Assembly: GCF_024204645.1 (NCBI RefSeq)
Contig: NZ_CP100351.1
Coordinates: forward strand, 3,188,001-3,252,000
Direction of reading: 5' to 3'
Length of the DNA: 64,000 nucleotides
Origin: Desulfomicrobium sp. ZS1
GTDB taxonomy: Bacteria; Desulfobacterota; Desulfovibrionia; Desulfovibrionales; Desulfomicrobiaceae
Position numbers and translations under genes: made by a program
Part shown: positions 45,424-48,374 of the stretch, piece by piece
How the letters are laid out: each line of letters opens with the position of its first letter
Numbering within the stretch: position 1 is the first letter of the stretch
The notes under the pieces: model-generated
Seen by the model: the letters and a program-made list of their open reading frames with translations, nothing else
What the model was told of the DNA's origin: nothing
Databases searched by the model: none

Positions 45424-45969
45424 ATGAAAATTCTGTCCATCACGCAACTGCCGGTGCAGCCGGAGTTCGATTTCCCTACCTTCCTTTTCCTGTCCCAGAT
45501 CGAAGAACTCGGGCCCCGCGACATGCTCGCCGTGCTCGACGTTTGGGAAAAATGGCTCCCGCTCCTCAAAGTCTACAAGCTTGGCGACCGCAAGGAACAT
45601 GTGGTTGTCTTTCTTGAAAGCGAGGTTGAGGATCAGGTCGACGAGATCTGGAAGCAGTCCCCGTCCGAGGCATTCAAACACGAGGCCATCGCCCAGACCA
45701 TGATCATGGGGACCTTAAAGGCGCTGATGCCCGAATTGGGGGAAAAGCAGTGCGCGCCGGTTCCGGAGCCGACCAAGCCGCTGTGCCGGACGCTTGAAAA
45801 AATCGGCCTGAACCTGCAGGATTCCGGAGCCCTGGACCGCAAATACGCGACCATCACCCCCTATCCCCACCGCTACGGATGCGAACGCTGTCACTTGAAA
45901 GACAGCTGCATCAAGAACATGAATCTGGACCTCAGCGGCATCATGAAATCACAGCCCAAGGCAGAGTGA
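45424..45969 (+). CDS. Unknown protein with CX2CX5C motif
   Basis: I do not recognise a family for this 181-residue protein. The N-terminal 100 residues look alpha/beta and acidic, without a signal peptide or membrane segment. The C-terminal part has C110 and C121, then C153, C156 and C162 (YGCERCHLKDSC), which could hold a zinc ion or an iron-sulfur cluster. It follows the PilZ-LuxR gene by 90 bases on the same strand and has coding-type composition. The region after it contains the dispersed repeat. Confidence 0.65.
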   Translation: MKILSITQLPVQPEFDFPTFLFLSQIEELGPRDMLAVLDVWEKWLPLLKVYKLGDRKEHVVVFLESEVEDQVDEIWKQSPSEAFKHEAIAQTMIMGTLKALMPELGEKQCAPVPEPTKPLCRTLEKIGLNLQDSGALDRKYATITPYPHRYGCERCHLKDSCIKNMNLDLSGIMKSQPKAE

Positions 45970-46085
45970 TCCCCGTCTCACGCGAAATTTCTTAAAAGAA
46001 TCCGGCAGGCGGACGTATCGTCCAAATTGCTCCCATCTTCCTGTGCACACCGCACCGAAAATGCTTTTCGCCAGTGTCTCAAGGT

Positions 46086-46254
46086 CCGGTGTCGGCATGG
46101 CCTTGAGGCGCGTCGGCTGTCTGACTGAGCCAGGCATCGTTTGCTGAATCGTTGCCGCGCGTCCTGCCCGGATTTTTCGTCTGACACGCAACGATTCAGC
46201 TCTACGAGGCCCACGAAGGAGTTCCGGCGGGCCTCAAGGCCATGCCGACACCGG
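46086..46254. repeat. Nested inverted repeats in the 324-base gap 45970-46293
   Basis: The outer arms are a perfect 24-bp inverted repeat at 46086-46109 and 46231-46254. Inside it is a perfect 13-bp inverted repeat, GCTGAATCGTTGC at 46143-46155 and its complement at 46188-46200. The gap lies between two convergent genes (the unknown cysteine protein and the SPL-like gene), so a folded RNA end on both strands is possible. Apart from these repeats and copy A of the dispersed repeat I see no gene or promoter here. Confidence 0.75.
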
Positions 46255-46265
46255 GCCGCTTGCCG
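46216..46265 (+). repeat. Dispersed 50-bp repeat, copy A
   Basis: This 50-base unit begins AAGGAGTTCCGGCGG and ends CGGGCCGCTTGCCG. It is identical at 44 of 50 positions, without gaps, to the unit at 50875-50924. Its middle also forms the right arm of the 24-bp inverted repeat. Confidence 0.8.
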
Positions 46266-46293: not shown

Positions 46294-47400
46294 CTACTCG
46301 TTGCCTTCTTCCCCAAAAGCCTGTGCCATGAGATGCCTGTAAAGCCCACCCAGGTCTGCGGGAGTGCGCCCAAGCACGGCCTGCCAGACTTCGTCAGACT
46401 CCATGCACATATAGAGCTGCCGATCAAGGCCGCCCCGTCGCAGGGCGCCTGCCAGAAAACGGAACTGCTCGACCCGCAGGGGACGCAGCAGGCGCTGCTT
46501 GCCGTCCAATCCGGTGATGAACTCACCGTAAATATACGTGGACTCGGGAAAATTTTCGCTGATGCAGCGCTTCAAATCCGGCATGTGCCGAAATGAGCCC
46601 ATGCTCACGTAGGCTATCTCTTCGGGGCGCAGATGGTCGAAGATCATCTCCACGGTGCGGGCGTAGCCGTCCTGCCAGCCGGGGAAATGGATCATGGGGT
46701 CAAAGTGCAGGCAGACCCGGAAGCCCTCCCGGGCGCAGGTTCTGGCCGCGGCAAGGCGTTCTTCCAGGCTCGCGCACTCCCCCTGCTCCTCGTGTTCGGC
46801 AATGGCCGGCGCGTTCATGGACCAGGCCGGGAGCACCCTGGACGGATCGCGGACCACGTCCATCCAGGACAGATCCACGACCTTGGATTTAAGTTCCAGG
46901 CAGACCTGCGGATACCGCCCCAGAAACTCGATCAGATCCCGGCTGTAGCCGGTCAGGGCTTCAAGCACCAGGGAATCGGTGAATTCTCCGGTTCCGACCC
47001 GATAGCGCCGGCTCGGGTTTGCGCTGAAGGCCTGGTCCAGTTCCCGCCACAGATCGTCCTGGTTGGCCCATACCTTGAGCACGCGATCCTGAAAATAGGC
47101 CTGCAAGATGCAGTAGGAACAGCGCAGCGGACAATTCTCGCCAATGTGGATGATCTGGTAACCGCAACAACGATAATAGCTGGTACCGGGACAATGACGC
47201 AAAAAACGCCCCCGGTACTGCTTCAGATAAAGAATATCCTCACGCGCAAGCCCGGAAGACAGGGTTTCCCCCTCGGGAAGAACTTCCGCCGTCAGGTGTG
47301 GCAATCTCTCCCGCACCCGAAGCGCGACGGGGGATTCAGCCACGGCCGCATCGACCACCACCCGGCTGATGCCCCGCAGATAGGAGGGCAGGGTATTCAT
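46294..47400 (-). CDS. Spore photoproduct lyase-like radical SAM protein
   Basis: A 368-residue radical SAM protein of the SPL family. The cluster motif CX3CX2C is C90, C94, C97 (GENCPLRCSYC), at almost the same positions as in Bacillus SPL. Later stretches such as MNAPAIAEHEE, HFDPMIHFPGWQDGYA and SMGSFRHMPDLK match the SPL pattern. In the place of the hydrogen-donor cysteine of true SPL (SCTSD context) this protein reads GEFTD, so the donor seems missing. The host does not look like a spore former. The start overlaps the ParB-like stop by ATGA. It may repair or modify DNA or another substrate; its reaction is not known. Confidence 0.82.
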   Translation of the reverse strand: MNTLPSYLRGISRVVVDAAVAESPVALRVRERLPHLTAEVLPEGETLSSGLAREDILYLKQYRGRFLRHCPGTSYYRCCGYQIIHIGENCPLRCSYCILQAYFQDRVLKVWANQDDLWRELDQAFSANPSRRYRVGTGEFTDSLVLEALTGYSRDLIEFLGRYPQVCLELKSKVVDLSWMDVVRDPSRVLPAWSMNAPAIAEHEEQGECASLEERLAAARTCAREGFRVCLHFDPMIHFPGWQDGYARTVEMIFDHLRPEEIAYVSMGSFRHMPDLKRCISENFPESTYIYGEFITGLDGKQRLLRPLRVEQFRFLAGALRRGGLDRQLYMCMESDEVWQAVLGRTPADLGGLYRHLMAQAFGEEGNE

Positions 47401-48374
47401 TTGCGCCCCACGGGAAAAAGGCCGTCCAGATCTTCACGGGCCGCGATGCGGGCCAGCTCGGCACTGGCGGCCCGCAACTCGTCCGGGCTTGTCAGGCGCA
47501 CGCTCAGTTCCACCGCGTTGCTCTCAAACATGTCCGGCTGCACCACCCGCCAGCGCGTTCCGGTCGATATCCTGCGGGCGGTTTCGGCAAAATCACGCTC
47601 CATGTCCGACAAAACCGGATAACGCCGCAGGCGCGCCTCGTGGAGGATGCGAGTCATGGCGTCCTTGGGCGAAAGACCGGCCGCCAGAATCTCCTTCAGT
47701 CCCACGCCATCCAGCACCTCCTGCACGGAAACACCGTCCCGGGCGCAGATCTCGCGAATCCAGGTCAGCACGTTGACCGCATTCCCGCGCGACCAGGAGA
47801 GCGTGATAAAGAGCGCCTCAAGTGCTGCCAGATCACCAGGGGCAAATGCCTCCAGCACGTCCGCGCAGGCCAGGGGGACGGCTCCCGTGCCCAGAAAATC
47901 GTCCCAGCGCGTGGGCAACGTCAGCCAGGAGCGGATCAGGCGTAGCCGCTTGGATCGCGCCTCAAGGTCCAGAGCTTCCAGCACCACCGCCATGTCCACA
48001 TCCGGCAGGGCGTTGAAATAGCGCATGGCCAGAACGAGCTGCCCGTCGGTCAACTCTGCCCCGGCATTGGAGCGCACGTAGGCCAGCCCTCTGGCCTCAT
48101 CGCTCAAGGCCCCCAGGTCCAGGCACAAAATCCCACGACCAAGCTCCGCCAGGGCCGCCACCCGTGCCGCACCCGCAATGAGCACGGGCCGAGCACCGCC
48201 GGTATCAACCAGTACAGGCATGAGCTGCCCATGATTTTCCAGGCTGCGGCGCAGGGACGGGGACGGCGGAGCGGACCAGAAAAGCCAGGGCCCGCCAACC
48301 TCGATATCCGATACGGCGCAACGCAGCATCGTAGGCCGCGCAGGACTCTGTAGCTGTTTATCGACCATATTCAT
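47397..48374 (-). CDS. ParB-like N-domain protein
   Basis: A 325-residue protein whose first 90 residues resemble the ParB/sulfiredoxin fold (SLENHGQLMPVLV, then ARPVLIAGAARVAALAELG where ParB has the GERR box). The GxRR arginines of CTP-binding ParB are not conserved (GAARVAA), so it is unlikely to be the chromosome-segregation ParB. The rest is helical, with no parA next to it. It overlaps the SPL-like gene by four bases, which suggests a joint function. It diverges from the EF-G-like gene. Confidence 0.65.
   Translation of the reverse strand: MNMVDKQLQSPARPTMLRCAVSDIEVGGPWLFWSAPPSPSLRRSLENHGQLMPVLVDTGGARPVLIAGAARVAALAELGRGILCLDLGALSDEARGLAYVRSNAGAELTDGQLVLAMRYFNALPDVDMAVVLEALDLEARSKRLRLIRSWLTLPTRWDDFLGTGAVPLACADVLEAFAPGDLAALEALFITLSWSRGNAVNVLTWIREICARDGVSVQEVLDGVGLKEILAAGLSPKDAMTRILHEARLRRYPVLSDMERDFAETARRISTGTRWRVVQPDMFESNAVELSVRLTSPDELRAASAELARIAAREDLDGLFPVGRK

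Follow-up and report, generated by a model that had tools for sequence, protein, structure and literature searches.

A ParB-like protein and a radical SAM enzyme with the fold of spore photoproduct lyase form a conserved gene pair in Desulfomicrobium and its phylum

Two overlapping genes of Desulfomicrobium sp. ZS1, one for a ParB-like protein and one for a radical SAM protein with the fold of spore photoproduct lyase (SPL), constitute a coupled, conserved two-gene unit, and a functional pairing of their products is well supported by our analysis. Within the phylum the enzyme occurs near-obligately together with this paralog of ParB, and the recurrence of the features described below over the phylum is more than chance. 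The pair is located in a 64,000 nucleotide stretch of DNA (contig NZ_CP100351.1; referred to as the window) of a 3.87 Mb genome. Both open reading frames are on the minus strand, the partner gene (325 aa) at 47397..48374 and the radical SAM gene (368 aa) at 46294..47400, and they share an ATGA overlap at 47397-47400. An earlier reading of the DNA from sequence only had noted this overlap and considered the genes to be coupled. Both statements are borne out, the first by the two reading frames themselves and the second by other genomes, where the two genes are mostly kept or lost together and in many cases are adjacent. A relative labelled as Desulfomicrobium (L050) has 86% identity.

Co-occurrence of the two genes was surveyed in 395 genomes of the same phylum. 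With cut-offs for strong matches which, for enzyme and partner alike, were set after the values were known, the two genes are found together in 219 genomes, while 13 have the enzyme alone, 5 the partner alone and 158 neither. The enzyme was found in 244 of the 395 genomes at E <= 0.001, and the 232 matches with E <= 1e-21 were counted as strong. The partner profile found a match in 374 genomes, 224 of them strong (better than about 5e-22), the remaining 150 (5.6e-11 to 7.5e-22) being at the level of canonical ParB. G377, by elimination the genome lacking a partner match, has neither gene and was first tallied as partner only; Fisher's test for co-occurrence gives p = 2e-85 on the counts 219/13/6/157, in which this genome still stands as partner only. 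Stratification over 26 families (154 genomes; hand-copied family labels, with one family, f88, that is not mixed and adds nothing) gives z = 8.5 and p = 2e-17. Within 16 families, genomes that carry both genes stand beside genomes that carry neither. Such joint retention and loss points to a two-part machine. In the family to which the window belongs, the enzyme is present in 22 of 22 genomes and the partner is above the canonical level in 21; in G011 the enzyme is cut by a contig end and the partner match is only at the canonical level, while in G018 the two genes are on different contigs.

Fourteen of the 18 genomes with a single gene likely have an explanation, and four remain. On the enzyme-only side, two genomes (G264, G344) carry another SPL-like subfamily, in three (G045, G325, G400) a diverged partner lies next to the enzyme, in G331 a neighbouring frame of 92 residues gives a weaker partner match, and two (G181, G371) have a partner segment fused to the enzyme. 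Two more, G206 and G209, have an enzyme match that begins 27 and 122 bases from the start of the contig, on the side where the partner is expected. No explanation was found for G135, G164 and G190, which are 80-86% complete. On the partner-only side, G154 has an enzyme fragment beside the partner at an apparent contig end, and in G089, G180 and G279 the partner is at most 143 bases from the contig end on the side of the expected enzyme; for G133 no explanation was found. Another 11 genomes have a weak enzyme match and no strong partner match; in 10 of these the matching protein is without the CC and YxCME motifs of the family, and G227 has no profile match. The partner was not found at the strong level in any of the 12 genomes in which only another SPL-like protein, without CC and YxCME, was found.

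Adjacency of the two genes is not confined to one strain. Among the 123 genomes that have places for both genes among the matches listed, the partner is directly upstream of the enzyme on the same strand in 78 and upstream within 600 bases in 3 more; in 8 the genes are elsewhere on the same contig, and in 34 they are on separate contigs, which in some draft assemblies may reflect a break. A separate set consists of 80 named loci (L050-L129) out of at least 576 relatives confirmed by a scan of genome contigs, with titles that name sulfate-reducer taxa, Deltaproteobacteria, Pseudomonadota, Proteobacteria or just a bacterium. The partner is adjacent in 45 of the 80 named loci listed and near in 2, another 2 are cut off, and 31 are without an adjacent partner, including L068, where only 408 bases are available upstream. 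From their titles and taxonomy, 18 of these 31 loci presumably belong to the Desulfobulbales.

Where the partner is located away from the enzyme, a purC-like gene is next to it in 8 of 18 regions, and a purC-like cluster is present in 21 of the 80 named loci listed. Because this gene stands beside the partner both in non-adjacent loci and in part of the adjacent ones, an old purC-partner-enzyme order is suggested, which would later have been broken with both genes retained. The purC-like gene and an EF-G-like gene recur near the pair by synteny (names read from the sequence), and SSB-like and DnaJ-like genes are found past the enzyme, at varying distance, in 14 and 15 of the 80 named loci listed. 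These four genes were considered as a third gene of the system; none is general and they are not counted as parts. Overall, the gene neighbours vary by lineage and do not make up a clear DNA-modification pathway.

A defence system was also considered and set aside, as neither protein has a PADLOC match at E <= 0.01. The matches in PHROGs are weak and concern only the partner, two of the three being ParB-like. An origin from a phage or a plasmid was rejected because scans of viral contigs with the partner and the enzyme alignment gave no relative. A tblastn search with the enzyme returned six plasmid records, four of which were examined and belong to other SPL subfamilies, and two phage records of another subfamily.

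Two further elements were seen downstream of the pair. Between the enzyme gene and the next gene, a 175-bp element (46083-46257) has inverted arms of 34 nt that are 91% complementary. It has 59 matches in the host genome, with short ones and its own arms counted, and 12 matches, one of them the element itself, span 166 bases or more with an identity of 80% or higher; this family is a REP/MITE-like repeat. The convergent neighbour gene (45424-45969) encodes a protein of 181 aa with a CxxCxxxxxC stretch close to its C-terminus, and no Pfam or NCBIfam family matches it above cut-off.

The radical SAM protein scores 60.9 bits against the Pfam SPL family PF20903 (cut-off 27), which at E <= 0.01 also matches 38 of 38 members of our enzyme alignment A1. 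Its score against the SPL equivalog TIGR04070 is 61.6 bits, under the cut-off of 400, and that against TIGR03886 (spore photoproduct lyase family protein) is 23 bits, under the cut-off of 437.55. An AlphaFold2 model of the enzyme built from the 38-row alignment has a mean pLDDT of 89.2, and the first six ranks of a Foldseek search of the PDB with this model are all SPL. Structural superposition with SPL (4fhf) by VIA-align gives a Z of 33.9 over 316 of 368 residues (rmsd 2.2; model 6-333, SPL 2-341), and the next fold has a Z of 14.8. The whole fold is thus shared with SPL (SplB; PDB 4fhc-4fhg), and so are the cluster motif CX3CX2C (C90, C94 and C97 of the radical SAM [4Fe-4S] cluster; 47110..47133, minus strand, with Y96 inside and I98 next), as the sequence-only reading had it, the tyrosine Y96, and an aspartate, here D142, three residues past the donor column.

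It has been reported, in a passage of PMC3742179, that the direct hydrogen donor of SPL is a cysteine, C141 in the Bs and C140 in the Gt enzyme, and that the relay tyrosine, Y99 in Bs and Y98 in Gt, is part of the radical return path. Positions were mapped through a phmmer alignment to chain 4fhg (a C140S mutant) with columns counted by hand. Enzyme residue E139 (46984..46986, minus strand) aligns with chain residue 167, which is the column of SPL residue 140 because the cluster cysteines C90/C94/C97 fall on chain residues 117/121/124. In the same alignment, I98 occupies the column of SPL Y98 and Y96 that of SPL Y96. Both the donor cysteine and the relay tyrosine of SPL are therefore absent from the window enzyme, and the earlier observation that GEFTD takes the place of SCTSD at residue 139 agrees with this mapping. 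An inspection of the alignment for a cysteine at the donor position gave none in 176 rows (the window and 175 loci, L001 being the same gene, with L203 of another subfamily dropped before the count) and none in the 80 named loci listed, which are counted apart from the rows.

Position 139 is a glutamate in all 176 rows and in 78 of the 80 named loci listed, the other two having glutamine (L064 and L065, both from Solidesulfovibrio). Position 98 is I in 122 rows, V in 41, F in 5, A in 5 and Y in 3 (L198, L202, L328), and in the last three the donor cysteine is still absent. A strict rule is weakened by Q139 in two loci and Y98 in three rows. The cluster cysteines and Y96 are present in 176 of 176 rows. 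Beyond what had been read from the window, the family has four further conserved cysteines in addition to the lost relay tyrosine. C70, C78 and C79 precede the cluster loop (47164..47193, minus strand), and C332 is located in a YxCME motif close to the C-terminus (46405..46407, minus strand). C70 and C79 are present in all 176 rows; C332 in 173, with a gap in the three rows that end early, and in 80 of 80 named loci listed. C78 is found in 167 rows, and all of the remaining nine have C72, which occurs in none of the 167. Four of these nine rows are in our tree, where they are situated at three separate places (L198; L192 with L234; L333). This exact exchange of C78 for C72 suggests a metal or Fe-S site. 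The number of thiols ahead of the cluster is held at three while one of them moves, as a metal site would ask, and C332 makes four. The alignment thus suggests that C70, C78, C79 and C332 could form a metal or Fe-S site.

The same residues have to be weighed for another function, an SPL-like repair in which C332 or another extra cysteine would replace C140 in space and the lesion would be other than the spore photoproduct, 5-thyminyl-5,6-dihydrothymine, which SPL repairs. This is compatible with the SPL fold, with the location of C332 near the end of the aligned SPL chain and with the midpoint-rooted tree, where the group nearest to the family is made up of SPL and its close relatives. However, the relay tyrosine is also gone in 173 of 176 rows (I, V, F or A), the three loop cysteines and their swap resemble metal ligands rather than a donor, and we know of no DNA lesion that these anaerobes would share, which we count against it as well. 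We consider repair with an alternative donor unlikely.

In a tree of 49 rows, a branch with support 95/89 sets off the 32 rows of the family as one group. SPL and three plasmid proteins of the SPL family adjoin this group, and a gut group and ten more SPL-like proteins from the phylum stand apart from it. The midpoint root is for drawing only (93% of 200 bootstrap trees), and three long-branch rows make the deep placements unsure. In contrast to SPL, the family has E139 for C140, I98 for Y98 in the window enzyme, the four extra cysteines, about 35 more C-terminal residues and a ParB-like partner, and the TIGR04070 score of the window enzyme is far from the cut-off. The three plasmid proteins, annotated as spore photoproduct lyase family protein (Aureimonas, Gloeothece and Granulicella; L138-L140), are likewise SPL relatives outside spore formers. 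Unlike the window family, they keep the donor cysteine (SCYTD) and the relay tyrosine (YCYL), are without the extra cysteines and group with SPL in the tree. Their scores are 249.6 to 339 bits against TIGR04070, under 400, and 88 to 106 against TIGR03886, under 437.55; the NCBIfam scan thus places them nearer to TIGR04070, and their membership in TIGR03886 was rejected. The gut group, two phage records and a Fusobacterium protein (L141-L143; SYDTD type), also has no cysteine in the donor column. However, it has a tyrosine there, keeps the relay tyrosine, is without the CC and YxCME motifs and is located on the opposite side of the tree. Further SPL-like radical SAM proteins without CC and YxCME occur in the same phylum (L203-L206, L208-L215), and their host genomes have no strong partner match.

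The partner protein of the window has no Pfam match, and ParB_N is matched at E <= 0.01 by 6 of 31 partner relatives. A profile of 31 partners aligns by hhalign with canonical ParB of the host genome and its relatives at 99.6% probability over 275 columns, through the C-terminal domain, so that N-domain, HTH region and C-terminal domain match end to end. Searched against the PDB, the profile finds chains of Noc, ParB and Spo0J with E down to 2e-20. A model of the partner (pLDDT 91.4) has Noc/ParB as top Foldseek matches and resembles Noc, ParB, KorB and PadC in structure, the fold of ParB, Noc and KorB being matched over the N-terminal two thirds. Only G49, G68, R71, P253 and E284 are invariant in the 31 rows, and a diverged partner (L197) is without E284. 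As had been read from the sequence, the ParB-like N-domain is without a GERR box. Of this box G68 and R71 are invariant in the 31 partners, so that a GxxR is kept at its place (48162..48173, minus strand). In the EN..R nucleotide motif, N103 is present in 22 of 31 partners and the preceding E in 6, the window partner having S. The window protein retains neither box I nor the GERR arginine. This, together with S for the E before the asparagine, makes nucleotide binding, that of CTP included, doubtful; the residues of the CTP site are conserved only in part.

In contrast to ParB, Noc and KorB, the partner has an incomplete GERR box and box I, has no parA in the window, and is a paralog of the canonical ParB of the same genome that is linked to a radical SAM gene. 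The absence of a nearby parA, also stated in the sequence-only reading, was confirmed with the ParA family PF13614, which has 12 matches in the genome and none inside the window; the best one adjoins canonical ParB, and this parA-parB pair is about 150 kb from the gene pair. In a search for a parS-like site, the 330 bases that precede the partner were compared in 13 loci and gave no palindrome common to them, some single loci having one of their own. A stretch similar to TTGACA/TATAGG upstream of the partner is presumably, by its resemblance to the promoter consensus, the promoter of the divergent EF-G-like gene. Another ParB-like gene of the host genome (G000:C1:386757-387317) is situated beside a frame similar to sigma-54 activators, and the 3.4 kb examined there show no parA-like frame.

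In two genomes, G181 and G371, only a part of the partner was found. Their enzymes (L198 and L202, with a cysteine at 72 instead of 78) carry an in-frame N-terminal extension that matches positions 197-262 of the partner profile (approximately the same residues in the window partner, 47589..47786, minus strand). The E of the match varies from 1e-5 to 1e-7 with the size of the search set, and 10,000 shuffles gave no such match. The two extensions are 52% identical over 111 residues and the fusion is in stretches without N. The rest of the partner, including the ParB N-domain and HTH, was not found in the stretches searched (the whole contig of G371 and 6 kb of G181), and a search for the partner in the whole genomes gave matches at the canonical level only. 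The family of these two genomes includes a third, G274, with a partner match of its own (1.4e-43) and no extension. An apparent fusion in genus g4 was rejected: the 798-aa frame of L020 crosses undetermined bases (329 N in the locus), and in L188 and L189 each gene has a frame of its own. With only the middle segment found, as a fusion, some lineages can probably do without loading of DNA by the ParB core. The presence of only residues 197-262 in two genomes also weakens a strict DNA-clamp model, and from the sequences this docking segment may be the essential part.

It is possible to see the partner as a regulator or an otherwise unrelated DNA-binding protein, as KorB and Noc are, with an enzyme that acts on RNA or a metabolite and a gene arrangement that is an operon of convenience. 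The ParB fold does include a repressor, KorB (according to titles of PDB entries), and among the 123 genomes with places listed for both genes, 45 fall outside our limits for adjacency. However, both genes are still kept where adjacency is lost, on different contigs in 34 genomes (some maybe through assembly breaks) and on one contig in the 8 genomes where they are more than 600 bases apart or turned round. That both genes are lost together within 16 families, and that a part of the partner is fused to the enzyme, speaks for a shared function. This reading appears distinctly improbable to us.

The tight linkage and co-loss would also suit an enzyme that modifies the ParB-like protein, or another protein, in the manner of a maturase, the pair being a modifier with its target or leader. 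The segment fused in two genomes resembles a docking segment, and radical SAM protein modifiers are among the structural neighbours of the enzyme, at Z values far below SPL (PFL activase 13.8, SuiB 13.6). However, the closest fold by a wide distance is that of a DNA enzyme. As a target, the partner has merely five invariant columns in 31 rows, one of which is lost in L197, and most of it was not found in G181 and G371. This explanation is also an unlikely one in our opinion.

The reading that we tentatively prefer, at rather less than an even chance, is that the pair is a two-component anaerobic enzyme system in which a ParB-like adaptor brings an SPL-fold radical SAM enzyme to DNA. DNA is proposed as the substrate on the indirect grounds of the SPL fold and the ParB-like partner. 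This substrate, a role in repair and loading of DNA by the partner, all put forward in the sequence-only reading, stay inferences by analogy. To our knowledge, SPL is the only radical SAM enzyme known to act on DNA. The adaptor might use its middle helical segment and the RYP region to dock on the enzyme, and so deliver it to DNA. Cleavage of SAM, as in other radical SAM enzymes, would then generate a 5'-deoxyadenosyl radical, which could take a hydrogen from a base or sugar. With the SPL return path missing, SAM would be spent in each turnover, and with the donor and, mostly, the relay gone, the product side must differ from SPL. The conserved glutamate at the donor position and the possible four-thiol site suggest an oxidative end or a transfer through a second site: E139 may handle the substrate, and the putative metal or Fe-S site of C70/C78/C79/C332 may finish the reaction. 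The product would be a modified or processed base and not the simple reversal of a thymine dimer.

The sequence-only reading had named the pair as a candidate for an undescribed system, and as far as the open-access full texts searched go this holds, no description of the pair having been found there. Passages of PMC2628731 and PMC5317093 mention SPL homologs of Nautilia and Desulfurellaceae, with no ParB partner in those passages.

The further proposal that a ParB-derived adaptor and an SPL-fold enzyme with a second metal site carry out a new radical modification or repair of DNA throughout the phylum is possible, although we hold it to be somewhat unlikely. The family combines a lost SPL donor, a probable metal site and a tie to a ParB paralog, which, if true, would amount to a new kind of radical chemistry with nucleic acid as its probable target. 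The pair is short and is found in cultivated sulfate reducers, according to the named records. With 219 of 395 genomes, it reaches over half of the species sampled in a major anaerobic phylum. If the proposal is true, SPL would be joined by another class of radical SAM enzymes that act on DNA, and the ParB fold would serve a purpose other than partition.
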